Assembly: GCF_007860175.1 (NCBI RefSeq)
Contig: NZ_SJPX01000006.1
Span: 498,074 to 562,073, forward strand
Source: Rubripirellula reticaptiva
Lineage (GTDB): Bacteria; Planctomycetota; Planctomycetia; Pirellulales; Pirellulaceae
Length of the DNA: 64,000 nucleotides
Direction: 5' to 3'
Positions 2,962 to 27,582 of the stretch are shown here, piece by piece. The notes below the pieces were generated by a model, which worked only from the letters and a program-made list of their open reading frames with translations, was not told the DNA's origin and did no database searches. A program made the position numbers and the translations under genes. How positions within the stretch are numbered: position 1 is the stretch's first letter; each line of letters begins with the position of its first letter.

Positions 2962-2977
2962 CGGCATGTCGTTTGCT
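2962..2977 (+). promoter_or_regulatory. Sigma-54 type -24/-12 promoter before the desulforedoxin-like gene
   Basis: The sequence CGGCATGTCGTTTGCT fits the sigma-54 consensus TGGCACG-N4-TTGCW, with GG and GC separated by exactly 10 bases. It departs at the leading T and at the C of GGCAC. It would start transcription about 35 nt before the small metal-binding protein gene and may also serve the PP2C gene downstream. An intact sigma-54 activator gene lies about 4 kb away. Confidence 0.6.
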
Positions 2978-3022
2978 TCACGTGGTTGTGTCTAAAGCCC
3001 TTCACCAAACGCGAGTATAGAG

Positions 3023-3208
3023 ATGAGCGAAACTAGAAAACCATTGAAGATCGGCGACATGTTTCGCTGTGCCAAGTGCGGGTTAGAAATTCACGTTACC
3101 CAAGGCTGCGATTGCAAAGACTGTCGAGCTGATTTCCAGTGCTGTGGTCAGCCGCTTGAGAATGTCACGGCTGTGACCGTTCGAAAAGCGCAGTCCGAAC
3201 TGAACTAA
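3023..3208 (+). CDS. Small desulforedoxin-like metal-binding protein
   Basis: A 61-residue cytoplasmic protein with seven cysteines: C16-x2-C19, then C29, C31 and C34, then the pair C40-C41 followed by GQPL. The CxxC plus CCGQP pattern is that of the desulforedoxin / N-terminal desulfoferrodoxin fold, which binds one Fe or Zn with four cysteines. The additional C29-x-C31-x2-C34 cluster is not part of the standard fold and might bind a second metal or act in redox sensing. The gene starts with ATG behind a weak ribosome site and a sigma-54-like promoter. The exact function is not known to me. Confidence 0.75.
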   Translation: MSETRKPLKIGDMFRCAKCGLEIHVTQGCDCKDCRADFQCCGQPLENVTAVTVRKAQSELN

Positions 3209-3290
3209 AAGTCCTAAGCAGAAAACGATCGCTGGTCGCGGAAAACGGTGTTACCACCATGCGACAATTGTTTCTCGCGAGTTCGACCAT

Positions 3291-4310
3291 TTGGCTTACG
3301 ACAAGATTGATGAAGTGCTTATCGATTTGGCCAGCACATTGCCGAGCCAGCTTGGTCGCGCCGAAGTCGACTTCCAAAACCAATTCAAGCATTCCGAGCA
3401 AGCGTGCCCCACGAAGAGCAGACCATTGGATACCCAAGATAGTTTTGACGCCGCTGGCACGAGTGACATCGGTCAGAAGCGTGCTGAAAATCAAGACCAT
3501 TTTTTAGTCGCAAGTTTGCGGCGACAGATGGTTGTCGATCAAACGGATGTCCCCGCCAAGCAACAGGAAGAACTCTATGGTTGCCAGGAAGGTCGGCTAT
3601 TGGTGATTGCCGATGGTATGGGTGGGCATCATGGAGGCGAACAGGCTAGCCGGACAGCGGTTGAGTCGTGCGCTCAATACGTTTTGGACATGATGCAATG
3701 GTTCTTGAAACTGGCCCCTGGAAGCGAAAAGGACTTCGAGGACGAGCTATCGGATTGCTTGAAGTCCGTTCAGCAGAAGATTTGGGACAACAGCGTCGCC
3801 GGAGGCAGGCGAATGGGAACGACGGTAACAATGGCTTACGTGTTGTGGCCGAGAATGTTCGTCGTTCATGCAGGCGACAGTCGTTGTTATCTGCTTCGAG
3901 ATGGTGAACTCAAGCAGCTAACAACGGATCACACCATCGCTCAGCAGCTGGTGGACTCAGGCGGGATGACCCCGGATGACGCGGCTCTCTCAAACTGGCG
4001 ACATGTCCTATGGAATTGCGTCGGCGGGGGTGAAGAGCAAGTCCGACCGGAAGCGGTACGATGTCAGCTTAAAGACGACGATGTGATCGTTCTTTGCAGC
4101 GATGGCTTGACTGGAATGGTCGCGGATTCGGAAATTGCCTCAATCATCGGCAATGCATCATCAAGCGAGAAGGCAACGCAGGATCTAGTCGACGCAGCCA
4201 ACCATGCGGGCGGCAATGACAACATCTCGGTGATCGTTTGCCGGATCGTAGAATCTAGTAAATGTGACGAACAAGTTTCTGATGGGTTAGCGACCACCAG
4301 AATCTTGTAA
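3291..4310 (+). CDS. PP2C-family serine/threonine protein phosphatase
   Basis: Mn/Mg-dependent protein phosphatase. The PP2C domain begins about residue 53 (TSDIGQKRAENQDHF) and shows the metal-binding motifs VIADGMGGHHGG, VVHAGDSRCYLLRDG, VLCSDGLTGMV and GGNDNISVIV in the right order. It is a stand-alone catalytic protein of about 340 residues, without kinase, receiver or membrane domain. The first 50 residues are unlike the family and may form a helical docking arm. The start is uncertain: the frame opens with TTG and stays open further upstream with no ATG. It lies 82 bp after the desulforedoxin-like gene and may be cotranscribed with it. Confidence 0.88.
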   Translation: MAYDKIDEVLIDLASTLPSQLGRAEVDFQNQFKHSEQACPTKSRPLDTQDSFDAAGTSDIGQKRAENQDHFLVASLRRQMVVDQTDVPAKQQEELYGCQEGRLLVIADGMGGHHGGEQASRTAVESCAQYVLDMMQWFLKLAPGSEKDFEDELSDCLKSVQQKIWDNSVAGGRRMGTTVTMAYVLWPRMFVVHAGDSRCYLLRDGELKQLTTDHTIAQQLVDSGGMTPDDAALSNWRHVLWNCVGGGEEQVRPEAVRCQLKDDDVIVLCSDGLTGMVADSEIASIIGNASSSEKATQDLVDAANHAGGNDNISVIVCRIVESSKCDEQVSDGLATTRIL

Positions 4311-4312
4311 TT

Positions 4313-4345
4313 CAGGCACCGTTGTCGCGAACGGTTTTCAGCCTG
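4313..4345 (+). terminator. Terminator hairpin between convergent genes
   Basis: A perfect inner stem ACCGTT / AACGGT with loop GTCGCG is followed by TTTT. An outer stem CAGGC / GCCTG encloses it. It sits a few bases after the PP2C stop codon and before the end of the oppositely oriented membrane-protein gene, so it probably ends the phosphatase transcript. Confidence 0.6.
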
Positions 4346-4395
4346 TGATAAGAATTCCGACTCGGCCGCAAGCTAAGCGATTCACGCTAGGCTGA

Positions 4396-5091
4396 TTACT
4401 CCCCATCCTTTTTTACAATCAACTCCGCCGCATACGCCAGAACGTCGACAGCAATGTCGGCGACGATCGCTCGGCCCTTCGCTAACCAGGCGGCAGCGAA
4501 TGACCAGACCGCAACCCATTCCATCCAAAATAAAAAGTTGTAGTCATTGAAGATTCGTTTCCAATCGTCGCTAAGCAAAAACAAGTAGCCGCCCATCAAC
4601 ACGAGGCTTAACAGAATCACACTTCCACTGAGGCGATATATCCACGTTCGTTCTCTCAGATGCGGCTCCTCTTCCCGTCGGGAGTCACGCGGGAAGTGAT
4701 AGAGAGAGTAGAACGCGAGCGTCACGAAGAACACACCGCCACTGAAGGTATGCAGATAACCTGTCAACGATTTTTGAAACAACGGATCGCTATTGAAATC
4801 CAACGGGAAAAGAGCGACGCCAAGGGCAGAGACGCAGCCAAGGTTCGCCGTCCAGTTTTCGATGCGATCGTAGCCACGGTAACAAAACAAGAAGATTCCG
4901 ATCGCGCACAGGGTACCAACAAAGATGTCGCGCATGCCTGTGTGATAGTAGCTGCTCATGTTGTCTTGCACGGGCACTCCCGAAAGCAGACCGCCAATCA
5001 ATAACAACACGGGCAATAGCAATCCGCTTACCCCGATCGCCCGGCGAATGGTGATATAGGAAACGACGAGGATGCTAGAGTTGTCAAGCAC
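4396..5091 (-). CDS. Multi-pass membrane protein, DUF998-like
   Basis: About 231 residues with six or so hydrophobic segments. The conserved-looking core is SSYYHTGMRDIFVGTLCAIG, then FLFCYRGYD, then SALGVALFPLDF. This SYYHT-x-MRD/VG pattern is found in bacterial DUF998-like membrane proteins of unknown role. No ATG is available at the N-terminus. I chose GTG at 5091 because the frame further upstream only mirrors the GlsB-type gene in another frame and contains no start codon near the first membrane segment. It follows the GlsB-type gene by about 95 bp and is probably cotranscribed with it. Confidence 0.7.
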   Translation of the reverse strand: MLDNSSILVVSYITIRRAIGVSGLLLPVLLLIGGLLSGVPVQDNMSSYYHTGMRDIFVGTLCAIGIFLFCYRGYDRIENWTANLGCVSALGVALFPLDFNSDPLFQKSLTGYLHTFSGGVFFVTLAFYSLYHFPRDSRREEEPHLRERTWIYRLSGSVILLSLVLMGGYLFLLSDDWKRIFNDYNFLFWMEWVAVWSFAAAWLAKGRAIVADIAVDVLAYAAELIVKKDGE

Positions 5092-5186
5092 AAGTTCACT
5101 TGTTATCGGATCGGGTTCGGAGAAGGTGTCATCGAGTTCAGCCTCGGGATAAAGGTCACAAGCCGGAAGCCTATTTACTCCATGGA

Positions 5187-5441
5187 TTAGTCGATGAACT
5201 TCCCTCGACGAACTGAGATCGCGAGCAAGATGATCGCTCCCAAGATGGACCCGATCCAACCGCTGGACTGGATGATCGATCCACCTTGAAGTAGGTAGCC
5301 GATCGCCCCGCCGACAAACGAACCTGAGATACCGAGAATGATGGTTCGCATACAGCCCATCGGCTGTTGGCCCGGAACAACTCCCCGAGCAATCAGTCCA
5401 ACCACGAAGCCGAAAACAATCCAACCGAGAATCCAAAACAT
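5187..5441 (-). CDS. GlsB/YeaQ/YmgE-family small membrane protein
   Basis: An 84-residue, very hydrophobic protein with three membrane segments and the family's glycine-rich pattern: WIVFGFVVGLIARGVVPG, then GISGSFVGGAIGYLLQGG, then IGSILGAIILLAI. Members are transglycosylase-associated or stress-induced inner-membrane proteins, induced in several bacteria by acid, osmotic or stationary stress. It starts at ATG and is preceded by a -24/-12 type promoter about 100 bp upstream, which would also carry the membrane-protein gene that follows. Confidence 0.88.
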   Translation of the reverse strand: MFWILGWIVFGFVVGLIARGVVPGQQPMGCMRTIILGISGSFVGGAIGYLLQGGSIIQSSGWIGSILGAIILLAISVRRGKFID

Positions 5442-5478
5442 TGCGTGTGACCTATGAGTGGGGCGTCGAGATATATCG

Positions 5479-5533: not shown

Positions 5534-5544
5534 GGATCGGGTTT

Positions 5545-5560
5545 TGCAAACCCCGTACCA
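5545..5560 (-). promoter_or_regulatory. Sigma-54 type -24/-12 promoter before the GlsB-type gene
   Basis: Read on the minus strand, TGGTACGGGGTTTGCA matches TGGCACG-N4-TTGCW with one mismatch (C to T in the -24 element) and the strict GG-N10-GC spacing. The predicted start falls at the edge of the palindromic repeat, giving a leader of about 90 nt before the GlsB-type ATG. Confidence 0.6.
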
Positions 5561-6833: not shown

Positions 6834-8171
6834 TTAGCAGGAAATTCCGTGCTTTTCGATCATGCGGTACAGTTTGCGGCGTTCGATGCCTAGTGCTTTG
6901 GCGGCTTTGGATTTGTTGCCGTTCTCGCGCTGCAAGACCTCGGCGATGTGTTGGCACTCGAGCGTGATTAGCGAGCCGAAAAATGGAATTGGGATGGCAG
7001 CCATCGGTGTCATCGGAGTGCGGACCTCTTCTGGAAGGTCACTAATTGTAATGTGCCCGTCGTCGGCGAGTATCTTGGCTCGTACCAACGTGTTGATGAG
7101 TTGGCGAATGTTTCCGGGCCAAATGTAGGCGACCAGAGCTTGTCGAGCGTCGTCGTCTAGTTCGTGGTCTTTATCCAAAATATGGTTGAGCAAAAGCTCG
7201 ATGTCACCATTACGCTCTCGAAGTGGCGGCAAGTCCAAGGCCATCACGTTGATTCGATAATACAAGTCTTCGCGGAAACGGCCTTCGGCAACCTCGGTTT
7301 TCATGTCGCGGTTCGTTGCTGCGACAATGCGAACGTCAACACGGCGTTCTTTGTGCGATCCGATCCGGCGAAGTGATCCGTCTTCGAGCACTCGCAAAAG
7401 TTTCGGCTGAAGTGCAAGTGGCAATTCTCCAATTTCGTCGATGAACAATGTGCTGCCGTCGGCTACTTCAAACAGCCCAGGTTTCATTGCCGTTGCGCCC
7501 GTGAACGATCCTTTCTCGTGACCGAACAGTTCACTTTCGACAAGGTTCTCGGGCAGGGCGGCACAATTGAGCGTGACGAGCGGACGTTCGCTACGAGAAC
7601 TACCAGCATGAATCGCTTGGGCGACCAGTTCCTTTCCAGTTCCGCTTTCACCTTGGATCAGAACCGCTTTGTCCGTTGGTGCGACTCGGTCAATCAACCG
7701 TCCGAGACGCTGCATTGGTTCCGAAGTACCAATCATCGCCGTGGCTTGTTTTCTGTTTCGTGTGATGACTTCGCGAAGTTGTAAGTTTTCCTTCCTTAGC
7801 CTCCGTCGTTCAATCGCGGCGATGCAACGACGTTCTAAGTCGCCCATCGCGAAGGGCTTCGTCTGAAAGTCGAAAACGCCCAACCTCATCGACTCGACAG
7901 CGTTATTGATCGTCCCTTCGCCGGTCAGCACGATGACTTCCGTTTCGGGATTCGATTCACGCATCCGCTGGACTAGTTCGATTCCACTAAGTCCCGGCAG
8001 GTTCCAGTCCAAGATGACGGCGTCAAAGTCATGCTTGGAGCATTGGTCGATACCGTCTTGGCCGCTAGTCGTTTGCGAGACCCGGTGCCCCTTCTTTTCG
8101 AACCAACGAGAGCACCCCTCGATGAAGTCGATGTCGTCATCGACAAAAAGTAACTCGATTGGTTTGGACAT
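6834..8171 (-). CDS. Sigma-54-dependent response regulator (NtrC/AtoC family)
   Basis: A 445-residue activator of sigma-54 RNA polymerase. The receiver has D11-D13, phospho-acceptor D55 ([10 protein letters not shown]) and Lys in FQTKPF. The AAA+ domain has Walker A GESGTGKE, the sigma-54 contact loop GSFTGA (a known-type variant of GAFTGA), Walker [14 protein letters not shown] and the R-finger region [11 protein letters not shown]. The C-terminal Fis-type helix-turn-helix is [21 protein letters not shown] chose the ATG behind AGGAAAG rather than a TTG 33 bases upstream. It is divergent from a FixL-like kinase, its likely partner. Candidate targets are the -24/-12 sites found in this window. 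Confidence 0.95.
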
Positions 8172-8405
8172 TATTGTGGCTTTCCTGAAAGCTGACGTCA
8201 CCAAGACCTGCGACTTTCCTTACCGCAACGAAAGTCTTGGCACCTTACGCTACAGTAGCGATGCCCGCATGTGCGCACCAATCGTGCAAATTAAGGCAAA
8301 CGAATTCCATCGACGCGCGGAAATCGATTGTTTCGATGCCTTTTATGACCAACCTCGCGCCGACGCACCGGTTGATTGTTTGAATGCAGCTAAGCGAGTA
8401 CCAAT

Positions 8406-10820
8406 TTGCCAATCACACACGAGGACATAGCCATCTCCACCTTTGATCCTCAACCTCCGAAGCCGCACTCACTCGGCGACGATCCTGGTCAGCCCCAACG
8501 CACTTCCATCGAATCATCCGAGGCGATGATGCGTGCGATCGTCGACGGTGCCGTCGATGGAATCATTACGATTGATCAACAAGGAATGATTGAATCCTGT
8601 AATCCATCGGGCCTTTGCATGTTCGGCTATGAGGCTTCGGAACTGATCGGTCAAAACGTGAGTTGCTTGATGCCGAAGACTTTCGCCGTCGATCACGATC
8701 GCCATCTCTCCGATTATGCGCGTACCGGGGAAAAGAAGATCATAGGCGTTGGACGCGAACTGGTCGGCCAAAAGAAAGATGGAACCACCTTTCCAATGAA
8801 ACTTTCGATCAGCGAGATTCGTGTCAGTGGTCGAAGACTGTATGTAGGCATCGTTCATGACCTGACCGAACGCGACCGCTTGCAGAGTCAACTGCGTGGT
8901 CGCAATCGCGTACTAGAGAATCTGGCGAAGGGCCAGTCCCTGGAAGAAGTGCTGGGCGACTTGATCGAGGTTGGCGGGGCATCGCGGCCAGATCTGATCG
9001 GTTCCGTTCACGTGCTGGATCAACGAACCGGCTGTTTGCGGCATGGAGCGTCACGACGTCTGCCCGCATTCTATTTGGAAGCGATCGACGGCATTGTCCC
9101 CGGCCCAAAGGTCGGTTCGTGCGGAACGTCAGCGTTTACCGGCCAGCGAGTGATTGTCGAAGACATCAATACCGATCCGTTATGGGAAGATTATCGTGAT
9201 TTGGCCGTACGCGCGAACTTGCGAGCGTGTTGGTCGGAACCGATATTTGATTCAAGCAAAAAGATTGTCGGTACGTTTGCCATTTACTATACCGAGCCTC
9301 GGACGCCAGACACCACCGATCTCGATTTCGTCCTAGACTCCGCGAAACTGGCAGCGATCGCAATCGAACGGGCATGCTCAGACGACATGCTACGTCAGAT
9401 GGCGACGATCCTCGATTCAACCGAAGATGCCATCATTTTGAAGAATCTCGACGGCGTTATCGAGAAATGGAACGAAGGTGCCGAACGTCTCTACGGCTTT
9501 TCGAACGACGAGGCCGTTGGCCAGTCGATCAAGATGCTTATACCGGAAGACCGAACCTACGAACTCGACGCAAACGCCGAGCGGCTTCGGCAGGGCGAAA
9601 GAATCGAGCACTTTGAAACCGTACGCGTGACCAAGGATGGGCGCCGCATCCATGTATCGTCGTCAATCTCGCCTGTTCGGGACTCCGCAGGAAACTTGTC
9701 GCACGTCGTAGAAATTCAAAATGACATCTCGTATCGCAAACGCTCTGAAGCAATCATTCGAGAGAATGAACGCAAGTTATCGACTTTGTTAAACAGTCTG
9801 CCGGGCGCGGTTTTCCGCGTCGCCAACGATGGCGACTTTACTTTTGAGTTCGTGAGTGACGGATGTTTGGAAGTATTTGGATACGCAGCATCCGAACTGA
9901 CAAATGCAAGAATGGTCATTCTTCCCGAGGACATGCCCAAAGTGTCGGATACGATCGCTCGCAGCCTAGAAGAACGCAAACCTTTTGATTATGTCCACCG
10001 AATTCGTCATCGAAACGGCGAAATCCGATGGGTTTGGCCGAAGGGACAAGGTGTATACGACGACAACGGTGAATTGTTGGCGATCGAAGGGTTCATCTCC
10101 GACGTAACCGAACTGCATGAATCTCGCGAACAACTTGTTCAGTCTGGTCGACTCGCCGCAGTCGGACAAATGATTTCCGCCATCGCGCACGAAAGCCGTA
10201 ACGCGCTGCAGAGAATCCAAGTCGGAACCGACATGCTTGAATTAGAGTTTGGTGACGACTCCGACGCGCATGATGATCTCCAGCGAATCAACCGCGCCAA
10301 GGATGACTTGCTTCATCTCTTTGAAGACCTTCGCACCTATGCAGCGCCCATCCAACTTGACGTTTGCCCAACGAACGTCGCCGAAGTATGGCAACAAGCC
10401 TGGACCAATCTGGAGGTGTCACGCGCAGGCCGCAACGTAGAACTTATTGAGGAGTCGTGCGATGTTGACTTGACATGTTGTATTGACGCGTTTCGTATCC
10501 AACAAGTTTTTCGCAATCTCTTCGAGAACGCGTTGGCCGCATGCAGTGATCCGGCACGAATCATCGTTTCTTGTCATGATTCAGATCTCGAAGGTGCGCA
10601 GGACGTGTGCATTACCGTGCGCGATAACGGTCCCGGATTATCGGACGAACAGAAAAAGCGGATATTTGAGGCCTTCTTCAAGACAAAGTCGAAAGGCACT
10701 GGGTTAGGCATGGCAATTGCTCAACGTATCGTTCAAGCACATCAGGGGAAAATTGCGGTTACAGAAGCCAAGGATGGCGGAGCCGAGTTCCTGATCATTT
10801 TGCCACGGATATTTAAGTGA
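8406..10820 (+). CDS. PAS(FixL-like)-GAF-PAS-PAS sensor histidine kinase
   Basis: An 804-residue soluble kinase. PAS1 (about 40-155) resembles the haem PAS of FixL: H97 aligns with the proximal haem histidine (His200 of B. japonicum FixL) and R117 in KIIGVGR aligns with Arg220, which controls O2 signalling. The flanking KKDGTTFPMKLSISE is also FixL-like. A GAF domain (about 175-322), PAS2 (about 328-447) and PAS3 (about 452-572) follow. The HisKA domain has H595 in AIAHESRNALQ. The HATPase domain has NLFENALAA, VRDNGPGLS and GTGLGMAIAQRIV. The start is TTG, uncertain. Its stop overlaps the GTG of the receiver gene (GTGA). Haem binding is inferred by alignment from memory. Confidence 0.92.
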   Translation: MPITHEDIAISTFDPQPPKPHSLGDDPGQPQRTSIESSEAMMRAIVDGAVDGIITIDQQGMIESCNPSGLCMFGYEASELIGQNVSCLMPKTFAVDHDRHLSDYARTGEKKIIGVGRELVGQKKDGTTFPMKLSISEIRVSGRRLYVGIVHDLTERDRLQSQLRGRNRVLENLAKGQSLEEVLGDLIEVGGASRPDLIGSVHVLDQRTGCLRHGASRRLPAFYLEAIDGIVPGPKVGSCGTSAFTGQRVIVEDINTDPLWEDYRDLAVRANLRACWSEPIFDSSKKIVGTFAIYYTEPRTPDTTDLDFVLDSAKLAAIAIERACSDDMLRQMATILDSTEDAIILKNLDGVIEKWNEGAERLYGFSNDEAVGQSIKMLIPEDRTYELDANAERLRQGERIEHFETVRVTKDGRRIHVSSSISPVRDSAGNLSHVVEIQNDISYRKRSEAIIRENERKLSTLLNSLPGAVFRVANDGDFTFEFVSDGCLEVFGYAASELTNARMVILPEDMPKVSDTIARSLEERKPFDYVHRIRHRNGEIRWVWPKGQGVYDDNGELLAIEGFISDVTELHESREQLVQSGRLAAVGQMISAIAHESRNALQRIQVGTDMLELEFGDDSDAHDDLQRINRAKDDLLHLFEDLRTYAAPIQLDVCPTNVAEVWQQAWTNLEVSRAGRNVELIEESCDVDLTCCIDAFRIQQVFRNLFENALAACSDPARIIVSCHDSDLEGAQDVCITVRDNGPGLSDEQKKRIFEAFFKTKSKGTGLGMAIAQRIVQAHQGKIAVTEAKDGGAEFLIILPRIFK

Positions 10821-11194
10821 TACCTCCCTTACGAATTGCCATTGCCGACGACGAAGCCGATATACGGCAGTACTTTCGTCGGCTCTTGCCTCGACTCGGC
10901 TATCGGTTGGTTGGTGAAGCGCAGAACGGTCTCGAGCTGGTGAAACTTTGTCTTAGTGAAAAGCCCGATCTCGTCATCACCGACGTGATGATGCCTGAGA
11001 TGTCGGGTATCGAAGCGGCAGTGGAAATCAATAAGACGCAAAACGTTCCTGTCATCATTTTGTCGTCCCACGAACGACCGAGCTGCGAAGACGAAGGACA
11101 GACAGAAACCACCGGCATCATCGACTATCTTCAAAAGCCCGTGAGCCTATCCGACCTGAAAGCAGCCATCCTACGGGCCTGCCCCGCAGCGTGA
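10817..11194 (+). CDS. Single-domain CheY-like response regulator
   Basis: A 125-residue receiver without output domain. It has D11-D12, phospho-acceptor D56 (LVITDVMMPEMSG), the conserved Ser in IILSSHERP and Lys in YLQKPVS. It starts with GTG overlapping the TGA of the upstream kinase, so the two are translationally coupled and probably form a pair. It may act as a phosphate sink or intermediate between this kinase and the divergent sigma-54 regulator, or dock on another protein. Confidence 0.92.
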   Translation: MIPPLRIAIADDEADIRQYFRRLLPRLGYRLVGEAQNGLELVKLCLSEKPDLVITDVMMPEMSGIEAAVEINKTQNVPVIILSSHERPSCEDEGQTETTGIIDYLQKPVSLSDLKAAILRACPAA

Positions 11195-12325: not shown

Positions 12326-12828
12326 CTATTTTCGTTTTGCAAATTTCGCATCGCAATGCTCTTTCGCTTCGATGCAACCGTAGTTGGATCTTCCATCGCC
12401 GATGGTGATGACCGCGAGCCACTTGGCAATGCCAGCCTCGTCTGTGCGCACACTGCCAGCCGTCTTCGTTAACCGTCCACCCGTTCCGTGATCTTCTCAC
12501 CCGAATGCCGAGCCAAGTCTTTGGTGCACGTGTCCACTTTAATGCCAGGAATGATGCCGGTTACGGCGAGGGCTTTGGCAAAACGGAGTTTCGTCGGTCA
12601 AAGCTGGCGGATGGTTTATTCATCGACGATCATGCCACTAATGCAATCACTCAAACCCCGGGTCGTGACGATCATATCGCGGTAGTCATGACGGCGTTTC
12701 TCCATTTGCGGGATGCCTTGTGCCGAAAATCGTTTGCTGCAAGTCGCATCATTTTCATCCATCGCCAGCATTCCCTTGCCGTCGGCGAACATCGCTTTTG
12801 CGGTTTCAATCCGCCGTTTGACAGTCAT
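12326..12828 (-). pseudogene. 5' remnant of class I fructose-bisphosphate aldolase
   Basis: The ATG-started frame reads [20 protein letters not shown], then the family's RRHDYRDMIVTT and SGMIVDE, and hits TAA. It continues through TIRQ, a TGA, FAKALAVTGIIPGIKVDT, KDLARHSGEKITE, another stop, and AKWLAVITIGDG before a TAG. This is the first half of a class I aldolase in order, with at least three stops and some frame changes. The Schiff-base lysine half is lost. The start overlaps the end of the phosphoketolase gene by 23 bases. Confidence 0.88.
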
Positions 12829-15214
12829 TGATTGCAATTTCCTTGCTCCATTTCCACTCGCGAATCTCCGGCATGTCGAGGCCGTGTTTGCGGATATACG
12901 TGTAGTGTTCTTGCAGCTTGTCGATGAGTTGTTTTTTCAATCGAGCGCCCGCATTGCCGGTCTGCGGCAAGCGGTCGATGGTGTCCATCACCAGATGAAA
13001 CCGGTCGAGATCATTCAGAACAGTCATGTCGAAGGTCGTCGTGATCGTCCCTTCTTCCTTGTAGCCGCGAACATGTAAATTTGTGTGATTGGTTCGTCTG
13101 TAGGTCAGCTGGTGAATCAATGACGGATAACCGTGAAAGGCAAAGATGATCGGCTTGTCGCAAGTGAACAACGCGTCAAAATCTTTATCACTCAGCCCGT
13201 GTGGATGTTCGGATGCCGGTTGCAACTTCATTAGGTCAACGACGTTCACAACGCGAACTTTCAGGTCGGGCAAGTGTTCCCGCAGAATAGAAACCGCGGC
13301 CAAGGTCTCAAGCGTCGGCACGTCACCACAGCAAGCCATGACGACATCCGGTTCGGCGTCGCCATCGTTGCTCGCCCAATCCCATTTGCCGATGCCAGCG
13401 GTGCAGTGCTTGACCGCGTCCTCCATTGACAACCACTGAGGTGCTTTGTATTTACCCGCAACGACCACATTTACATAGTCTCGACTCCGCAAACAGTGAT
13501 CCCACACGGACAGCAAACAATTCGCGTCGGGCGGCAGATAGATACGAACCACTGACGCTTTCTTGTTCGCGACGTGGTCGATGAATCCCGGGTCTTGATG
13601 CGTGAAGCCGTTGTGAGCTTGCTGCCAAACGTGCGAAGCGAGCAGATAGTTCAGCGACGCAATCTTTTCACGCCACGGTATTTCGGCTGTGATTTTGAGC
13701 CACTTTGCGTGTTGGTTGAACATCGAATCAATGATGTGAATGAACGCTTCGTAACTGTTGAAGAGCCCGTGTCTGCCCGTCAGCAGGTAGCCCTCAAGCC
13801 ATCCTTCGCATTGATGCTCGCTGAGCATTTCCATGACACGCCCGTCATTGTCCAAGAACTCGTCATTGTCTTTTGTGCGAGCTTCCCACTGCCGATCTGT
13901 GACTTCAAAGACCGAGTTCAAGCGATTGGAAAGAGTTTCATCCGGCCCGAAGATGCGAAAGTTTCGTTGCTTGCGATTGAGCTTGACGACGTCGCGAAGA
14001 AACTCACCCAGGACGTGCGTGTCAGCGGCTTCTACAGCACCAGGAGCCGGCACCTCAACCGCATGCTTCCTGAAATCTGGCATGATCAGATCCTTTAACA
14101 GCAATCCGCCATTGGCGTGTGGATTGGCTCCCATCCGCCGCGCTCCAACCGGAGCCAATTCGGCTAGCTCCTCAAACAATCGCCCCTGTTCATCGAATAG
14201 CTCTTCCGGTCGGTAGCTCTTCATCCATTCTTCAAGTTGTTCCAGATGTCCCGGGTGATCATCGTCAATGTGCAGTGGCACTTGATGTGCCCGGAAGGTT
14301 CCTTCGACTTGCAAGCCATCAACGAATTTTGGCCCGGTCCAACCCTTAGGCGAATTGAGCACAATCATCGGCCACCGTGGTCGGGACGCATCGTCGTTAT
14401 CGCGTGCATTTGATTGAATGTCGCGAATTTCTTCAATCACCTTGTCCATCACCTGTGCCATCTGCTTGTGCATCGTCTCAGGATCGTCGCCTTCGACGAA
14501 ATACGGCTTCCACCCACAGCCCTTGAAGAACTGTTTCAATTCCTTATGAGGGATGCGGGCAAAGACCGTTGGATTCGCGATCTTGTATCCGTTCAAATGC
14601 AAGATTGGCAGGACAACGCCATCGGTGATCGGGTTAAGGAATTTGTTCGAGTGCCAAGACGTGGCAAGCGGCCCAGTTTCCGCTTCGCCGTCTCCTACCA
14701 CACAGGCCGCGATCAAATCCGGATTATCAAACACCGCCCCAAAAGCATGGCTGAGCGAGTAGCCAAGTTCGCCACCTTCATGGATCGAACCAGGACATTC
14801 GGGCGAAACGTGGCTGGGGATACCACCAGGAAATGAAAACTGTTTGAACAGTTTTTTCAGTCCAGCTTCATCCCGCGTGATCTCGGGGTAGACTTCGCTA
14901 TAGGTCCCTTCGAGATACGTGTTCCCAACGATTGCTGGCCCGCCATGCCCGGGACCGGAGACGTAAAACATGTTTAAATCGAACGCTTGAATCACACGAT
15001 TCAAATGCACATAAATGAAGTTCTGGCCCGGCGTCGTCCCCCAGTGGCCGAGCAGTGTTGGCTTTACATGCGATCGCTCCAGCGGTCGCTTCAGCAGCGG
15101 GTTGTCGTACAAATAGATCTGGCCAACCGACAAGTAGTTTGCCGCGCGCCAGTAGGCATCCATCTTGTGCAGCAGTTCGGGTGTGATTTTTCGTTCTTGT
15201 TGCAGCGCAGCCAT
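12806..15214 (-). CDS. xfp: Phosphoketolase (xylulose-5-P / fructose-6-P)
   Basis: Thiamine-diphosphate enzyme of 802 residues, the normal family length. It cleaves xylulose-5-phosphate and often fructose-6-phosphate with phosphate to acetyl phosphate plus a sugar phosphate. Family signatures are visible throughout: [44 protein letters not shown], the ThDP motif [19 protein letters not shown], and [11 protein letters not shown]. It starts at ATG and lies 109 bp after glgP on the same strand, so glycogen-derived hexose phosphate can feed it directly. A class I aldolase gene followed it but is now broken. Confidence 0.97.
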
Positions 15215-15323: not shown

Positions 15324-17873
15324 TCATCGCTGCCACCGGATCAGATCGAGTTCCAATGGAACACTAACGCTGTCATGGTTCGGTACAATGCGTGGTGTGA
15401 AGTGGGCGGGCGGGCGTGTTGCTCTGACGGATACGTGATAAGTCGCCCAGTGTGACTCTGTTTCATCGGGCGTTTCTGTTCGAGACATCGCTTGTCGAAC
15501 GGATGCTTCGTCAGAAACTGCGTTGGCGTATATCTCCACTCGCACAGAGTTCGGATCCAGCCCATCGAAGAAAACATCGACTTCAAAAACATGCTCTTCA
15601 TCGGTGGACTCTACTCGCACGTCGCCGAACTTCAGGGAGGACCACTTGTCACGAAGCGAATGTTGCCAGTGAACAATATTGGTCCCTACGGTGCCGCCGA
15701 GTGCCGATCGGTTGCGATAGTCGAAGGCCGCAGGTAGGTAGTGCTCGTCGGTGTATTCACGCACTGTGCGGACGGCTGAGAACAGTGGCGTCAATTGCGA
15801 CATACTGGCCCGCATGCGTGAGAGCCATCGAGCTGGGATTCCTTGTTCGTTGCGGTCGTAAAATTCGGAGACGACTTCGTTTTCGAGCAGGCTATAGAGC
15901 TGTTCGGCCTCGAAGGCATCCCAGGCTGGATCGTCACCGTGTTCTTGACCATCGCCTATCGCCCAACCAACTTCGGGCGTGTAAGCTTCGGCCCACCAAC
16001 CATCTAGCTCGGACAAATTGATGCCGCCATTGACGAGCACTTTCATGCCGCTAGTTCCGCTGGCCTCCCAAGGACGACGAGGCGTGTTGATCCAAACGTC
16101 GACGCCTTGAACCAAGTGTTCGGCCAGCAACATGTCATAATCGCTCAAGAAGATCACGTGACTGCGCGCAATCGGGTGTCGGATGAATTCGATCCACTTG
16201 CGAATCAAGTCCTGTCCGGCAACGTCCGCAGGATGAGCCTTGCCAGCGATGATAAGTTGAACAGGACGTTCGGAGTTGGCGAGCAAACGCAATAGCCGAT
16301 CGGGGTCATGCAACAACAGGTTGGGGCGTTTGTACGTTGCGAACCGACGGGCAAAGCCGAGCGTCAAGGTGCTTGGGTCAAGCAGATGCTTGGCTGCTTC
16401 GACTTCTTCGGGCGATGAACCCGAAGCCGCCAATTGCCCCGACAATCGTTCGCGGGTGTATTCGACGAGTGAGTGCGATGAATCAACGCGGAACCGCCAT
16501 AGTTGTTCGTCGGATACGCGATAGATATCGCACTCGAGCGTTTCGCTCATTCCAAGCCAACGATTCTTTCCACACGAATGAGTCCAAAGCGCATCCGCCG
16601 CCGCCGAATCCCAACTTGGCATGTGGACGCCGTTCGTTACGTGCCGCACAGGAACTTCTTCTTCGGGCCATTTCGGGAACAGAGGCTCAAAAATGTGGCG
16701 GCTGACTTGTCCATGCAAACGACTGACACCATTAACGCTACCGCTGCCACGGATCGCCAAGTAGGCCATGTTAAATGGCTCCGAAATGTCGTTGCGATTC
16801 TGTCGACCGAGTGCGAGCAGTTCATCGACGGAAATACCCAGCCTCTGCTCGGCGTACCGACCGAGATACTGCTTGATCAAGCTTGGAGAAAACCGATCAA
16901 AACCCGCCGTCACCGCAGTATGCGTTGTGAAAAGATTTCCGGCTCGCGTCACCGCAAGTGCCACCTCGAATGACTGTCCCGATGCATCCATGTAGCTGCG
17001 TGCGCGTTCCAAGATGGCAAAGGCGGCATGGCCTTCGTTCAAGTGACATACTTCCGGTGCGATCCCAAGTGCCGCCAGCAATCGCCAGCCGCCAATGCCG
17101 AGAATCATTTCTTGTTTGAGACGTAACTCTGGTCCGCCACCATACAGTTCGCTGGTAATGCCTCGGTGTGCTGGGAAGTTTGCGGCATCATTGCTGTCTA
17201 GCAAATACAGCTTCACTCGACCAACCTGAACTTGCCAAGCTCTTAGCCACACCGAGTAGCCCGGCAACTCAATTTTCAAACGCAACCATTCGCCGTCCTC
17301 GCCCCGAAGTGGACGAATCGGCAACTGGCCAGGATCGTTGTAGGGATACAGTGCGTGCTGTTGCCCTTCGATGTCAATGGTTTGCCGAAAGTAGCCTTGT
17401 TGATAGAGCAGCCCTACCGCGACAACCGGCACGCCCAGGTCGCTGGCTGCTTTGAGTTGATCGCCGGCGACATTGCCAAGACCACCGGAATAGATTGGCA
17501 ATGCTTCACTGAGCATGAACTCCATACTAAAGTACGCGACGCAACTGAGCGGCGAGTCAGCATGCGTTTGTTGAAACCAAGCTGGTTGCTCTGCCGTTTG
17601 TCGGCGAATGCTGAGCAATCCATCAACCTTTGCACGAAAATCAACATCGCCAAGCACTTGCTCCAGTCGCTGACGTGACACCGTTTGCAGCACCACCCAC
17701 GGATTGTGCGTATTCTTCCACAATTCGGCATCCAATCGACGCCAAACTTCATCGGTCGCGTGATTCCATGATGACCGCAAGTCGAGCGCCAACTCGGCCA
17801 GCGAATCGACACCGTCAATTTCGATGGGAAAGAGATCATAGATCGGATGCACATGACGCGGGTTAACCGTCAT
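15324..17873 (-). CDS. glgP: Alpha-glucan (glycogen) phosphorylase
   Basis: A GT35 enzyme of about 849 residues that releases glucose-1-phosphate from glycogen. Visible signatures: SWNHATDEVW near the start, SMEFMLSEALPIYSGGLGNV, LNEGHAAF, and the pyridoxal-phosphate region RPWEASGTSGMKVLVNGG with its lysine, followed by NLSELDGWW. It belongs to the shorter, allosterically simple type of phosphorylase. The ATG lies two bases after the stop of the SpoIIAA-like gene, so translation is coupled; an ATG 18 bases upstream is possible but would overlap that gene. A C-terminal extension of about 130 residues (FEVDVFFDGLDPNSVRVEIY) forms a beta-rich tail. Confidence 0.95.
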   Translation of the reverse strand: MTVNPRHVHPIYDLFPIEIDGVDSLAELALDLRSSWNHATDEVWRRLDAELWKNTHNPWVVLQTVSRQRLEQVLGDVDFRAKVDGLLSIRRQTAEQPAWFQQTHADSPLSCVAYFSMEFMLSEALPIYSGGLGNVAGDQLKAASDLGVPVVAVGLLYQQGYFRQTIDIEGQQHALYPYNDPGQLPIRPLRGEDGEWLRLKIELPGYSVWLRAWQVQVGRVKLYLLDSNDAANFPAHRGITSELYGGGPELRLKQEMILGIGGWRLLAALGIAPEVCHLNEGHAAFAILERARSYMDASGQSFEVALAVTRAGNLFTTHTAVTAGFDRFSPSLIKQYLGRYAEQRLGISVDELLALGRQNRNDISEPFNMAYLAIRGSGSVNGVSRLHGQVSRHIFEPLFPKWPEEEVPVRHVTNGVHMPSWDSAAADALWTHSCGKNRWLGMSETLECDIYRVSDEQLWRFRVDSSHSLVEYTRERLSGQLAASGSSPEEVEAAKHLLDPSTLTLGFARRFATYKRPNLLLHDPDRLLRLLANSERPVQLIIAGKAHPADVAGQDLIRKWIEFIRHPIARSHVIFLSDYDMLLAEHLVQGVDVWINTPRRPWEASGTSGMKVLVNGGINLSELDGWWAEAYTPEVGWAIGDGQEHGDDPAWDAFEAEQLYSLLENEVVSEFYDRNEQGIPARWLSRMRASMSQLTPLFSAVRTVREYTDEHYLPAAFDYRNRSALGGTVGTNIVHWQHSLRDKWSSLKFGDVRVESTDEEHVFEVDVFFDGLDPNSVRVEIYANAVSDEASVRQAMSRTETPDETESHWATYHVSVRATRPPAHFTPRIVPNHDSVSVPLELDLIRWQR

Positions 17874-17875
17874 GA

Positions 17876-18235
17876 CTATTCCACAAGCCATTGGCGAGCT
17901 GATTCGATGTCGCTTTGGTCAAAGTACTTGATTTTCGCAGTCGTGAATGGCTTACAGAAAACGGCCATGCCATGTTCCCACTTCGTCTCACCAACGATCG
18001 CTAGACGTTCAATGTCGTTAAAGTGCTTTGCATCAAACTTGATGTCTTGCCACATCGCACCTGCATCCCATCCATGAAAATCATGCATGGAAAACAGTAT
18101 CCGAATCTTCCCGAACTCTTCGATCTGGCGTTCGACCGAAGGCAAGAACAATTTGTAAGCTTCTGTATCGAGCTTCCCGGTAATTCGAATCTCCAACACG
18201 TTTCCGTTTTGGACTTCGCTCAATTCGACAGACAT
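17876..18235 (-). CDS. SpoIIAA-like (STAS-fold) protein, copy 1
   Basis: A 119-residue cytoplasmic protein of the SpoIIAA-like / DUF3478 type. It has a beta start (NVLEIRITGKLDTEAYKLFL), a middle FHGWDAGAMWQDIKFDAKHF and a basic strand IERLAIVGETKWEHGMAVF. The family shares the STAS fold but lacks the anti-anti-sigma phosphorylatable serine motif. Its role is unknown; carrier or lipid binding has been discussed. It is the first gene behind a strong -24/-12 site and just before glgP. A second copy opens the ATPase train on the other strand. Confidence 0.85.
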   Translation of the reverse strand: MSVELSEVQNGNVLEIRITGKLDTEAYKLFLPSVERQIEEFGKIRILFSMHDFHGWDAGAMWQDIKFDAKHFNDIERLAIVGETKWEHGMAVFCKPFTTAKIKYFDQSDIESARQWLVE

Positions 18236-18298
18236 CTCAACACCTTCCGTTTCTTAGCGACAAATGATTGCGTCCGCTTGAACGCTGCAGAAGACTCT

Positions 18299-18314
18299 TG
18301 CAAGTTAAGTGCCA
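18299..18314 (-). promoter_or_regulatory. Sigma-54 type -24/-12 promoter before SpoIIAA-like/glgP/xfp
   Basis: On the minus strand TGGCACTTAACTTGCA matches TGGCACG-N4-TTGCW at every fixed position but one, with GG-N10-GC spacing. It is the best sigma-54 site in the window. The predicted start gives a leader of about 50 nt. A perfect dyad GCAAGC-N5-GCTTGC is centred about 100 bp upstream (18380-18396), where an activator dimer could bind. Confidence 0.75.
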
Positions 18315-18528
18315 AGAATCGAATGTCTTACTTTCAACCGTTTGCTGACGCTGGAGGGCATTTCGCTCTCTGATTCAATGCAAGCCAATTGCTTGCTGGA
18401 AACGATGTCATCCATCGCACACTCCTATGCCCATATGTGCACGGTTGCCCCACGTTCCAAAACGTCATCTTGGTCGACCTTCATTCGATAGGTCTAAATG
18501 CCGCGTCCCGTGGATGCGCCCGACGAGT

Positions 18529-19251: not shown

Positions 19252-19256
19252 CAGTT

Positions 19257-19412
19257 TTACTTTTCGATTGCTGCGTTCGGATTGACGTCGGCGGGTAAAG
19301 CCGAAAAAGATCCTTCCTCATATTTCGGCGGATAGCTGTTCTCGCCCGCCGTACGAGGATTGGTTTCGAAGAAGCCACACTCGCCACCGATCGATCGGCT
19401 AGGACCTACCAT
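19257..19412 (-). CDS. 51-codon micro-ORF between the EEP fusion and the VTT gene
   Basis: The ATG lies inside the last codons of the phosphodiesterase/EEP gene in another frame (14-bp overlap), and the frame ends 5 bases before the VTT ATG. The product is soluble, polar and proline-rich, reading MVGPSRSIGGECGFFETNPR near its start and ending PADVNPNAAIEK. It fills almost exactly the 147-bp gap between two cotranscribed genes and has no hydrophobic segment. The tight fit suggests a real translated gene. I do not recognise a family. Confidence 0.5.
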   Translation of the reverse strand: MVGPSRSIGGECGFFETNPRTAGENSYPPKYEEGSFSALPADVNPNAAIEK

Positions 19413-21954: not shown

Positions 21955-22030
21955 GGTAGACGGGATTTCTGGAGCTTGCGCTATGTCGGTTGACCTGTGA
22001 CACTCGGTTTGTGGGGTAAAAGAAGGAGTT

Positions 22031-23317: not shown

Positions 23318-23387
23318 GGTTTCGTTCCTATCAATGACGACTCAATGACGACGATCGTGTCTGGTTCGCTCAACCGTGCAACCGGAG

Positions 23388-25718: not shown

Positions 25719-25769
25719 GTGGACGCCTCTTTCAATTCAGGATTGCATTGGCCTCTCGGGGCCGTCGAG

Positions 25770-26837
25770 TTACTCATTGAAGATGACAAGCGGCTTGAGA
25801 ATTCCGTCTTCTTTGGTTTCCATCATGTGCAACGCTTTGTCGACGTCATCGAAAGCAAATCGGTGGGTCGTCAGCGGCGAGGGATCGACACGGCCGTGTT
25901 CGATCAGTCCCAGCAAACGCGACATGCGGACGTTTCCGCCCGGGCATAAACCTGTGCGAATGACTTTGTCGCTCATGCCGACACCCCATTCCACTCGTGG
26001 GATATCTACGCTGTCACCGTGGCCGAAGTAGCCGGCGACTGAGATAGTGCCGCCAGGACGAGTCGCCTTCACGCAAGCCTCAAATGTTGACTGAGCGCCC
26101 AGGCACTCGATTGCCGAATCAACGCCGACTCCGCCGGTCAGTTTGCGAATCTCTTCCACAGGGTCGCCCTGCGTGTAGTTGATCGTTTCGTCTGCTCCGA
26201 AATGCCGAGACATTTCCAAGCGTTTTGATACTCCGTCGATTCCAATGACAAATCCCGCGCCGAGCAATCGAGCGCCGACCGTTGCCATCAATCCGACAGG
26301 GCCCTGTGCGAAGACTGCCACGGTACCACCCAACGGAATGTTCGCGTGTTCGGCCCCCATGAAGCCGGTCGACAGCATGTCACAGGCATAGACCGCGATG
26401 TCGTCGGAGATCGACGCAGGAATGTGCGTCAGATTCGCGTTTGCATCGTTGACATGGAAATACTCCGCGAAGTTGCCGTCTTTTGTGTCGGCGTATTTCC
26501 AGCCGCCGAGCATCGTGCCGCATTGCGACGTGTAACCTCGCTGGCAATTCTCGCAGTGGAAACATGGCGTGATCGCGTTGACGGCCACACGATCGCCCTC
26601 CTTGAATCCATGCACTTCGCTTCCGAGTTTTGCGACAACACCAACGGCTTCGTGCCCAAGCGTCATGTTGTGCCGATCACCGATCGCTCCCTTGAGCGTA
26701 TGGACATCGGAAGTGCAGACCAACGCTCGAGTTGTTTTTACGATCGCATCGTTCGGCCCGGGTTCAGGAATCGGCTTGTCGACGAACTCGACTTCGCCGA
26801 GTCCTTGCATCACAAACGCTTTCATGGTTTTCGTCAT
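25770..26837 (-). CDS. Zinc-dependent alcohol dehydrogenase, secondary-alcohol type
   Basis: A 355-residue MDR enzyme. Catalytic zinc ligands are C41 (LVCTSDVH), H62-E63 (LGHEAVG) and the acidic residue in YACDMLSTGF. Structural-lobe cysteines are in CFHCENCQRGYTSQC. The Rossmann motif is AQGPVGLMATVGARLLG. The sequence GWKYADTKDGNFAEYFHV places it with the isopropanol / secondary-alcohol dehydrogenase group, which reduces acetaldehyde or ketones with NAD(P)H. It is the first gene of the minus-strand train, behind a -24/-12 site, and fits as the reductant sink beside phosphoketolase. It starts at ATG with AAAGG upstream. Confidence 0.92.
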   Translation of the reverse strand: MTKTMKAFVMQGLGEVEFVDKPIPEPGPNDAIVKTTRALVCTSDVHTLKGAIGDRHNMTLGHEAVGVVAKLGSEVHGFKEGDRVAVNAITPCFHCENCQRGYTSQCGTMLGGWKYADTKDGNFAEYFHVNDANANLTHIPASISDDIAVYACDMLSTGFMGAEHANIPLGGTVAVFAQGPVGLMATVGARLLGAGFVIGIDGVSKRLEMSRHFGADETINYTQGDPVEEIRKLTGGVGVDSAIECLGAQSTFEACVKATRPGGTISVAGYFGHGDSVDIPRVEWGVGMSDKVIRTGLCPGGNVRMSRLLGLIEHGRVDPSPLTTHRFAFDDVDKALHMMETKEDGILKPLVIFNE

Positions 26838-26875
26838 TGTTGATCGCCTTTGGAGATTCGGTTTGGTCTCAGAAA

Positions 26876-26891
26876 TGCAATCACTGTGCCG
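26876..26891 (-). promoter_or_regulatory. Sigma-54 type -24/-12 promoter before the alcohol dehydrogenase
   Basis: On the minus strand CGGCACAGTGATTGCA fits TGGCACG-N4-TTGCW with two departures and the strict GG-N10-GC spacing. The predicted start leaves a leader of about 30 nt with a good ribosome site. It would drive the train from alcohol dehydrogenase to the VTT gene. Confidence 0.65.
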
Positions 26892-26931
26892 CTGATAAAA
26901 ACAGGCAGAAAGAACGGCTTTCCCTCATGCA

Positions 26932-26949
26932 CTGCGCGTTTACGCGCAG
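26932..26949. promoter_or_regulatory. Perfect 8-bp dyad, candidate activator site
   Basis: CTGCGCGT-TT-ACGCGCAG is a perfect inverted repeat in the divergent promoter region. It is centred about 75 bp upstream of the predicted start of the alcohol dehydrogenase transcript, a usual distance for a sigma-54 activator, and about 50 bp upstream of the mgtC-like start codon. It might equally be a small hairpin in the mgtC-like leader. Confidence 0.4.
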
Positions 26950-26990
26950 GTTGTGCACACTATTGCTCAATCATCACCAAGGTAAACAGC

Positions 26991-27452
26991 ATGAACTACA
27001 TCGAAGCGTTCATTCCAACGGCAACGGCCATTGGATTAGGCGGCGTGATTGGGATGGAACGACAAATCAGCGGTCACTTTGCCGGTTTAAGGACGCACAT
27101 GTTGGTATCGCTTGCCTCGGCCTTGTTCGTCCTGGCATGTCGTGACTTAACCGCCCAATCCACGGTCGATTTGACACGAGTTGTACAGGGTATCGCGGCA
27201 GGAGTCGGATTCATTGGCGCGGGCACCATCTTGAAGACGAAGCACGAACATGGCGTGCTAGGTTTAACATCAGCTAGCACGGTCTGGCTGTCAGCAGCCA
27301 TTGGAACCGCATGCGGTTTGGGGCAGTATCCGTTGGCCGTCACCAGTGCCGTGATGACGATCATCGTTCTGGTCATTCTGCGACCCGTCGAAAATCACTT
27401 CGGTAACAAGTCGAAACGGAATCGTAAAACCGGTCTCCCTTCGAACGACTAG
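26991..27452 (+). CDS. MgtC/SapB family membrane protein
   Basis: About 153 residues with four membrane segments and the family pattern: ATAIGLGGVIGMERQ, the conserved Arg in GLRTHMLVSLASALF, QGIAAGVGFIGAGTILK and GLTSASTVWLSAAIGTACG. Family members affect Mg2+ homeostasis, membrane potential and, in pathogens, F-type ATP synthase activity. The ATG after AAGG was chosen; an upstream extension of the frame lacks any membrane-protein character. It is divergent from the alcohol dehydrogenase and precedes the second SpoIIAA-like gene and the N-ATPase operon, a suggestive place given the reported MgtC-ATPase link. Confidence 0.9.
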   Translation: MNYIEAFIPTATAIGLGGVIGMERQISGHFAGLRTHMLVSLASALFVLACRDLTAQSTVDLTRVVQGIAAGVGFIGAGTILKTKHEHGVLGLTSASTVWLSAAIGTACGLGQYPLAVTSAVMTIIVLVILRPVENHFGNKSKRNRKTGLPSND

Positions 27453-27566
27453 AGACGAGTCGAATCGTCCGAAGATCGTAAGCTTCGACGAGAAAGTTGG
27501 AGGGCAATGCGACAGAGACTGGCCGTATTCGCACACGTTCGCACACAAAACCATGTCAAGCCGACA

Positions 27567-27582
27567 CGGCACAACATGTGCA
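27567..27582 (+). promoter_or_regulatory. Sigma-54-like -24/-12 site before SpoIIAA-like/GH130/N-ATPase
   Basis: CGGCACAACATGTGCA keeps the GGCAC element and GG-N10-GC spacing but has G instead of T at the first base of the -12 block, so it is the weakest of the five sites. It would start transcription about 60 nt before the second SpoIIAA-like gene. Confidence 0.5.

Follow-up and report, generated by a model that had tools for sequence, protein, structure and literature searches.

The DosR dormancy regulon of Mycobacterium is served by heme sensor kinases, has targets rich in universal stress proteins and nitroreductases and is not known to involve sigma-54. FixJ, of the FixL/FixJ pair, is a LuxR-type regulator and is likewise not known to use sigma-54. 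NmpRSTU of Myxococcus xanthus, in the available portions of the two papers that describe it, combines an NtrC-like regulator with sigma-54 promoters, with oxygen limitation as the proposed signal (PMC11841059, PMC6211767). Its enhancer is the dyad GCGCA-N5-TGCGC, and among the genes under its control are those for a universal stress protein, a CBS protein and a P-type ATPase (PMC11841059), with homologs of nmpSTU noted in a Planctomyces (PMC11841059, PMC6211767). The present work concerns a 64-kb stretch of the genome of Rubripirellula reticaptiva (the window; positions 498074-562073 of contig C6 in the genome G000, which comprises 7.85 Mb in 13 contigs), carrying an NtrC-type sigma-54 activator, a divergent histidine kinase with a FixL-type heme PAS domain and, around them, -24/-12 sequences placed before genes of glycogen use, fermentation and ion transport. 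We consider it rather probable that the window contains the central part of a sigma-54 regulon by which this planctomycete group survives low oxygen or low energy.

By analogy, NmpRSTU appears to be the nearest tested counterpart. As far as the available parts of its description go, the two have in common an NtrC-type regulator, sigma-54 promoters, targets among stress and CBS proteins and oxygen as the proposed signal, and differ in the sensor (a protoglobin kinase within a multi-kinase relay in NmpRSTU, a FixL-type heme PAS here), in the targets (including cbb3 oxidase and heme synthesis there; glycogen phosphorylase, phosphoketolase and alcohol dehydrogenase (ADH) here) and in the upstream element, which here is the half-site TGTGCG/CGCACA. 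Pfam searches of two window kinases found no protoglobin of the NmpU type, and no genome-wide search for one was made. The control of a P-type ATPase by NmpR may be set beside a separate observation at C2:1645857 of G000 (locus L312), where a site with its half-site precedes a protein whose start, by reading only, resembles a YHS-type copper P-type ATPase. The likeness to FixL/FixJ lies in the family of heme-PAS oxygen-sensor kinases (matches to PDB sequences), whereas the regulator beside the window kinase is of NtrC type; that to DosR is one of content only, the regulator type being different.

To our knowledge, the ways in which planctomycetes employ their many sigma-54 activators are poorly understood. 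Studholme and Dixon reportedly predicted the sigma-54 regulon of Pirellula sp. strain 1 / Rhodopirellula baltica in 2004 and catalogued its enhancer-binding proteins; this study lay outside the reach of an open-access literature search, which found no publication on the present combination among the entries listed. For Rhodopirellula baltica, a member of the same bacterial group, the available part of one paper cites a proposed sigma-54 promoter before the thioredoxin RB10378, comparable to a thioredoxin site in the related genome G003, and gives rpoN as unaffected by heat shock and lowered at high salinity (PMC2754498). Predicted sigma-54 targets of Planctomycetia are enriched in chaperone and UspA groups, according to what was available of a further study, in whose main text the words phosphoketolase, phosphorylase, glycogen and COG1064 are absent (PMC12316311).

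The -24/-12 promoters and the genes behind them

A genome-wide search of G000 found one rpoN-type gene and 22 strong matches to sigma-54-type AAA+ activator domains. The planctomycete assignment agrees with its 46 PSD1 (PF07587) matches, a domain absent from all 14 control genomes and given as 41 copies for Rhodopirellula baltica. Mismatches were counted against the consensus TGGCACN5TTGCW with its GG-N10-GC core, genes were called with a simple codon-based caller, and a score of 12.5 served as the threshold for placement counts; related genomes (G-numbers) are of the same genus, family or order as the source genome. The initial annotation had listed five sites, at 2962 (+), 5545 (-), 18299 (-), 26876 (-) and 27567 (+), and their coordinates, strands and GG-N10-GC spacing all hold, with 45, 103, 63, 38 and 70 bases, respectively, separating the -12 element from the start codon. 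Its description of the three strongest as having one or two mismatches fits 5545 and 26876 (one each) and fails for 18299, which has none; 2962 and 27567 have two.

The local clustering that had been proposed is borne out by placement. Positions 1-30000 of the window hold 4 upstream sites, against 3 in 400 kb of background (20 evenly spaced 20-kb stretches of G000), giving a Poisson P of 9e-5 for 4 sites in 30 kb at the background rate. TGTGC or GCACA stands upstream of 4/4 of these sites and of 0/3 in the background; positions 30001-64000 have two upstream sites (41923 and 56923), with the element at 0/2. The site at 2962 becomes the fifth of the first 30 kb if the 61-codon gene behind it is real; it was filed as 'other' because the gene caller missed that gene. 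Across 41 loci, matches scoring at least 12.5 fell in upstream, non-coding and correctly directed positions 61 times against 3 for the backwards motif, and in coding sequence 55 times against 59. Many of these loci had been picked as islands, and density was therefore tested on the evenly spaced stretches of the source genome.

The promoter at 18299..18314 (-) (TGGCACTTAACTTGCA) is an exact match and the strongest and best conserved of the sites. Behind it, on the same strand, lie a SpoIIAA-like protein as the first gene of the operon (17876..18235; PF11964, 1.1e-30), an alpha-glucan (glycogen-type) phosphorylase of 855 aa (15324..17891; PF00343, DUF3417, above the cut-off of TIGR02094) and a phosphoketolase (12806..15214; three XFP Pfam domains). 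Phosphorylases of 72-81% identity occur in G003, G034, G075, G018, G058, G027 and G083, the first six of which are testable; G083, whose contig begins inside the phosphorylase gene, and G139, a partial match, were excluded. A threshold-level site precedes the phosphorylase gene, or the SpoIIAA-like gene before it, in five of seven related loci, namely the window, G003, G075, G034 and G058. Weaker sites found by eye at the phosphorylase operon of G018 (11.2) and before the SpoIIAA-like gene of G058 (11.4) are not in this count; one Fisher test used 6/7, with the G018 site, 5/7 being the stricter figure. When seven upstream regions from six genomes were aligned, the mean column identity was 46%, with 8 of the 11 invariant columns in the TTGG.A...TGC core. 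Some 103-126 bases upstream of this promoter lies an inverted pair (18417..18440, -; GCACATATGGGCATAGGAGTGTGC), a probable activator site by alignment and half-site model, to which similar elements of G003, G034 and, in part, G018 can be aligned. From its core, orientation and upstream placement, 18299 is well supported as a predicted sigma-54 promoter, and the conservation in relatives that the initial annotation had looked to for support is found.

Phosphorylases 62-74% identical to that of the window occur in Acidobacteria, Nitrospira, Gallionella, Anaerolineae, Bacteroidota and others, among the best 80 of a longer list of matches (L081-L160); a phosphoketolase is also present in 24 of these 80 stretches and an N-ATPase subunit in 10. 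A phosphorylase-centred cassette thus appears to be widely transferred between phyla. Among the same 80, a site lies within 700 bases in 0/76 phosphorylase, 0/22 phosphoketolase and 0/5 N-ATPase loci (76 being usable and 4 left out for unmet length or coverage conditions), at the threshold and stretch length also used for the related loci, and the promoters therefore belong to the planctomycete group and not to the cassette. A first control over 400 bases had the same outcome; it was repeated at 700 because 400 is too short for operons with a SpoIIAA-like gene interposed.

The promoter of the ADH gene (CGGCACAGTGATTGCA; 26876..26891, -) has one mismatch and carries upstream half-sites by the half-site model (TGTGCACA; 26952..26959, -). 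It reads into a zinc ADH assigned by family search (25770..26837, -), followed on the same strand by four genes at 18529-25718 for a 776-aa protein (23388-25718, -; no Pfam or NCBIfam match at E 0.001), a GT4 glycosyltransferase, a phosphodiesterase/endonuclease-type protein and a VTT membrane protein. A site also precedes the ADH gene in four of five relatives with a close ADH (G057, G075, G003 and G024; not G073), in agreement with the conservation hoped for, and TGTGC or GCACA stands upstream in three of the four. The alignment preserves the core, with the exception of G024, where the site sits at a different distance. With an ADH 96% identical to that of the window, G057 has a promoter that is a close copy and weak evidence; G075 and G003 are more diverged. 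As with 18299, core, orientation and upstream placement make 26876 a well-supported sigma-54 promoter prediction.

The candidate at 27567..27582 (+) (CGGCACAACATGTGCA; two mismatches) has a direct repeat of upstream half-sites (27531..27545, +; GCACACGTTCGCACA; half-site analysis) and precedes a second SpoIIAA-like protein (27653..28048, +; PF11964, 2.5e-14), then a GH130 phosphorylase (28110-29258) and an N-ATPase operon, which together span 28110..36071 (+; family searches). N-ATPase operons are defined by their subunits and gene order. Here the order is beta, epsilon, AtpQ-like, AtpR-like, a, c, b, alpha, gamma; subunits a and c pass the cut-offs of the 'alternate F1F0 ATPase' models TIGR03306 and TIGR03322, TIGR02230 and TIGR03165 account for the Q- and R-like genes, and subunit b gives a weak OSCP/delta match. 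The alternate subunits, the AtpQ/AtpR order and the lack of a separate delta gene identify the operon, as judged from the predicted proteins, as an N-ATPase. The promoter is not conserved before the same genes in relatives: the GH130 genes of G040 and G139 have no site of at least 12.5 in the 1.5-kb upstream stretch (that of G083, L184, was excluded, its locus beginning inside the gene), and of eight other N-ATPase loci two, in G030 and G048, carry their own site, placed 47 and 105 bases ahead of the beta gene, L199 having only weak ones. The site at 27567 probably drives the SpoIIAA-like/GH130/N-ATPase genes; the promoter claim for the N-ATPase hinges on this single two-mismatch sequence, and the link is rated probable. 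The place given to the N-ATPase in the regulon is favoured by the good upstream half-sites and weakened by the mismatches and the lack of conservation before GH130 in G040 and G139. The initial annotation had the three sites read into glycogen phosphorylase and phosphoketolase, into ADH, and into GH130 and the N-ATPase; placement agrees, except that a SpoIIAA-like gene comes first behind both 18299 and 27567.

The two remaining listed sites are weaker. That at 5545..5560 (-) (TGGTACGGGGTTTGCA) has one mismatch and one upstream TGTGC, and stands before a gene for an 84-aa transglycosylase-associated protein (5187-5441; PF04226, just above cut-off); that at 2962..2977 (+) (CGGCATGTCGTTTGCT), the weakest of the five, has two mismatches and precedes a gene whose small, Cys-rich product of 61 aa has no Pfam match (3023-3208). 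Neither gene has relatives in the related loci fetched. Both candidates are present and correctly placed, as had been said, with weak upstream-element ranks. A further site, missed earlier, lies at 41923..41938 (-) (TGGTATGTGCATTGCA; score 14.8, no upstream half-site) before the gene for a 137-aa protein (41460-41873). Homologs of this protein have sites at -64 to -70 in two loci of G003 (18.5, and a weak one of 11.4) and in G075 (weak, 11.5); none precedes the gene of the 27%-identical homolog in L148. The tally is thus two promoters well supported (18299, 26876), a third probable (27567), two weak (2962, 5545) and one added (41923). A match at 10706-10721 (+) (AGGCATGGCAATTGCT) was rejected as a promoter, as it lies within the kinase coding sequence; near-identical matches recur in the kinase genes of relatives, which points to constraint on the protein and is a warning for matrix scans. 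An exact match at 56923-56938 (-) lacks an upstream half-site, with the nearest called gene 207 bases away. A tmRNA with the tag peptide ANESFALAA lies at 44717-45095 (-) of the window.

Upstream half-sites, activator and sensor kinase

Upstream of 18 hand-listed sites in relatives, CGCACA was the top 6-mer, with 13 occurrences in 10 regions against 1.47 expected. A first half-site model was trained on 24 regions, including five hand-added sites and orthologs of the window's own operons, and ranked against 295 control regions of G000; it placed 26876 at 0.3%, 27567 at 0.7%, 18299 at 1.4%, 5545 at 7.5% and 2962 at 27%. In a strict model the 9 window-operon orthologs were removed, leaving 15 training regions from relatives, and 26876 then ranked above all 295 controls, 27567 at 0.3%, 18299 at 1.0%, 5545 at 12% and 2962 at 52% (41923 and 56923: 78% and 56%), with a combined P of 5e-5. 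Three promoters (18299, 26876 and 27567) thereby share an upstream element within the top 1% of the strict test, which backs the shared regulation put forward earlier. TGTGC or GCACA lies within 130 bases upstream of 5/5 listed sites, against 19.5% of random non-coding places within 150.

Further motif searches used a first promoter group, made up of loci around clade A activators (see below) and around orthologs of the window operons in relatives, and a group of universal-stress-protein islands. Palindrome fitting by expectation maximisation (EM) gave 154 against 57-69 in three shuffled sets for the first group, a fit possibly dominated by a few repeat-rich promoters, and 102 against 56-63 for the islands. 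The leading dyads, CGC-N0-ACA and GAT-N0-GCA, reach a P of about 1e-6, uncorrected for the many dyads tried. In the islands GATGCA and a CGTGC-N6-GCACG dyad are prominent; the half-site model of this group was poor and was not used. Genome-wide, composite patterns occurred 53 times against 43 backwards and 36 times against 20 backwards. Loci were available for 60 of the 89 composite matches, of which 58 were examined (two overlapping duplicates out). Of these 58, 2 gave no hit; among the other 56, 11 lay upstream in non-coding DNA, a pair of the 11 being the same place and some having poor cores. The 29 without loci stayed unclassified.

In relatives, sites stand before genes for universal stress proteins, a GlgC-type nucleotidyltransferase (the name is a reading of the sequence; Pfam gives NTP_transferase), a protein of ADP-forming acyl-CoA ligase type, thioredoxin, nitroreductase, a FixG-type protein and CBS proteins, the half-site being present on some and absent on others. 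Within G000, site and half-site occur together before the universal stress protein genes at C2:327982 and C4:1076, and an exact site without the half-site precedes a weak nitroreductase-family match on C6.

The GSFTGA-loop activator of the initial annotation is confirmed at 6834..8204 (-), where the receiver, AAA+ and Fis-type helix-turn-helix (HTH) domains of an NtrC-type response regulator and enhancer-binding protein are found (PF00072, PF00158, PF02954). In an activator tree it falls in clade A (8 rows, support 100/100), set apart from clade B (11 rows, 100/99), which includes a second G000 activator near universal stress protein genes (C6:314k). The recognition helices of the two G000 activators are almost alike, ERRKLYR and HRRKLYR. 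Divergently from the activator runs the histidine kinase (8406..10820, +), followed by a single-domain response regulator (10817..11194, +; PF00072). A good sigma-54 promoter candidate stands before the kinase gene of G003, those elsewhere being weak (9.9 towards the activator in the window), and no promoter is claimed for activator or kinase. Beside the intact activator, 5764-6365 (+) holds a receiver domain and a short frame-broken sigma-54 AAA+ piece, a remnant of another activator.

The first PAS domain of the kinase (about 8505-8900) has as best solved matches the FixL heme-PAS structures 1d06 (3.5e-29) and 1dp6 (1.6e-26), then DosP, and belongs to the FixL family. The aligned histidine, which we take to be the proximal heme ligand of FixL, is kept. 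Five kinases of relatives, 0.8-12.9 kb from clade A or B activators, have the FixL-type domain, the histidine and the FG-loop arginine. Because the kinase next to the activator carries such a domain with the proximal histidine, oxygen is likely to be the signal; the initial annotation had named none, and the heme-PAS kinase adds a candidate. The direction of the response, on at low oxygen, is suggested by the targets.

In the mechanism that we propose, the FixL-type heme-PAS kinase would sense oxygen and hand phosphate to the divergent NtrC-type activator. The activator, possibly with a paralog elsewhere in the genome, would bind TGTGCG/CGCACA half-sites about 25-130 bases upstream of the -24/-12 promoters and, once bound, allow sigma-54 polymerase to open them. 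Targets in the window would be the SpoIIAA-like/phosphorylase/phosphoketolase operon, the ADH gene with those behind it and probably the SpoIIAA-like/GH130/N-ATPase genes; in relatives, universal stress proteins, the GlgC-type enzyme, the ADP-forming acyl-CoA ligase, thioredoxin and nitroreductase may be added.

Weight of the evidence and competing explanations

Several results weigh against the window as the core of such a regulon. Site scores come from a weight matrix whose weights are approximations. The window has 42 matches with up to two mismatches against 33.2 +/- 5.4 expected, a number reached by 9 of 100 shuffles, so that two-mismatch sites are uninformative by score alone; across G000 there are 19 exact matches against 17 for the backwards pattern. 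The phosphorylase locus of G027 has no site at the common threshold. When 6-mers were ranked against non-coding background, CGCACA came 4th of 1369 for the first promoter group; for the islands of universal stress proteins it came 108th of 1470, and for the six promoters called in the window, taken alone, 39th of 701. The element is therefore not common to all promoters. TGTGC/GCACA accompanies 26/42 upstream and 7/22 coding matches of score 14 or above (P 0.035), and is fairly frequent near coding matches too. In a second G000 island (C6:280-340k; L230-L232), where a clade B activator occurs together with universal stress proteins, cytochrome c, DsrE and a weak match to the nitroreductase family, the half-site stands on one of 6 upstream sites. 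The FixL FG-loop arginine, presumably the residue that contacts bound oxygen, is a lysine in the window kinase, for which reason the domain is named FixL-type and not FixL. Within the fetched stretches, a FixL-type PAS of at least 42% identity lies within 12.9 kb in 3/8 clade A and 3/6 clade B loci, the window included. Finally, the ADH promoter and its TGTGC-type half-sites are present in both G057 and G075, each of which also has a site before a SpoIIAA-like gene, with no clade A match among those listed.

On counting, 18299 is backed and the two-mismatch sites are not: exact consensus matches number 2 in the window (18299 and 56923) against 0.07 expected. The density scan thus gave an excess by placement and little or none by the count of two-mismatch or genome-wide exact matches, and it is for this reason that placement and conservation carry the argument. 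The reading of the sites as chance matches that the eye singled out from 64 kb finds support in the near-shuffle frequency of two-mismatch matches and in the genome-wide exact counts. It is nonetheless very improbable, being opposed by placement, density, footprints and upstream half-sites and by the conservation of 18299 and 26876 in diverged flanks; for 2962 it stays viable, as it does in part for 5545 and 27567. Of the 19 exact matches in the genome, 13 are non-coding and upstream of a correctly directed gene, and contig C6 (0.9 Mb of 7.85 Mb) holds 10 of the 19. Outside the window, exact sites precede genes that read, by reading only, as GroES, Hsp20 and a Pmp3-type protein, which, with the chaperone and UspA enrichment reported for Planctomycetia in the available part of PMC12316311, speaks for sigma-54 as a general stress sigma factor of the lineage, the island sites being part of a broad set without an oxygen-specific regulon. 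This we regard as improbable, well short of the standing of the regulon reading, since TGTGC/GCACA is absent from 10/11 upstream exact sites outside the window and from 3/3 background upstream sites, the island therefore having an element of its own, and since a heme-PAS kinase adjoins the activator.

A somewhat stronger contender, in our judgement still unlikely, accepts the promoters as real and assigns them to the clade B paralog (C6:314k), the adjacent clade A activator controlling something else. The best activator match of G057 and G075, which keep the promoters, is of clade B (58%), none of the matches listed reaching the 68% or more of clade A (further matches were not on the tree); the helices are nearly the same, and in three genomes a clade B activator is found at a distance of 3-13 kb from a FixL-type PAS kinase. 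Opposed to this, the universal-stress-protein islands, several with a clade B activator, favour GATGCA and CGTGC-N6-GCACG over TGTGCG, and clade A activator and promoters occur together in the window and in G003. The "one activator" of the initial annotation is not upheld, as G000 has both clades with near-identical helices and G057 and G075 keep the promoters with a clade B best match. Its joint control of glycogen use, fermentation and an ion pump finds support for the first two in the conservation of 18299 and 26876, and less for the pump, whose promoter is not conserved.

What the proposed regulon may mean for the group

The promoter group, the enhancer element, the activator pair and the probable oxygen sensor are jointly testable. 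Tentatively, and with chances that we place slightly short of even, FixL-type sensor, NtrC-type activator and sigma-54 may form a DosR-like dormancy and fermentation regulon that has captured the laterally spread phosphorylase/phosphoketolase cassette through -24/-12 promoters and enhancers; the idea of capture draws on the same genes being without sites in all 76 usable loci of other lineages among the best 80 listed. If true, a new group would have brought a mobile metabolic cassette under a sigma factor that gives no sign of controlling it elsewhere, and the locus would be a further case, beside NmpRSTU, of sigma-54-mediated oxygen control.

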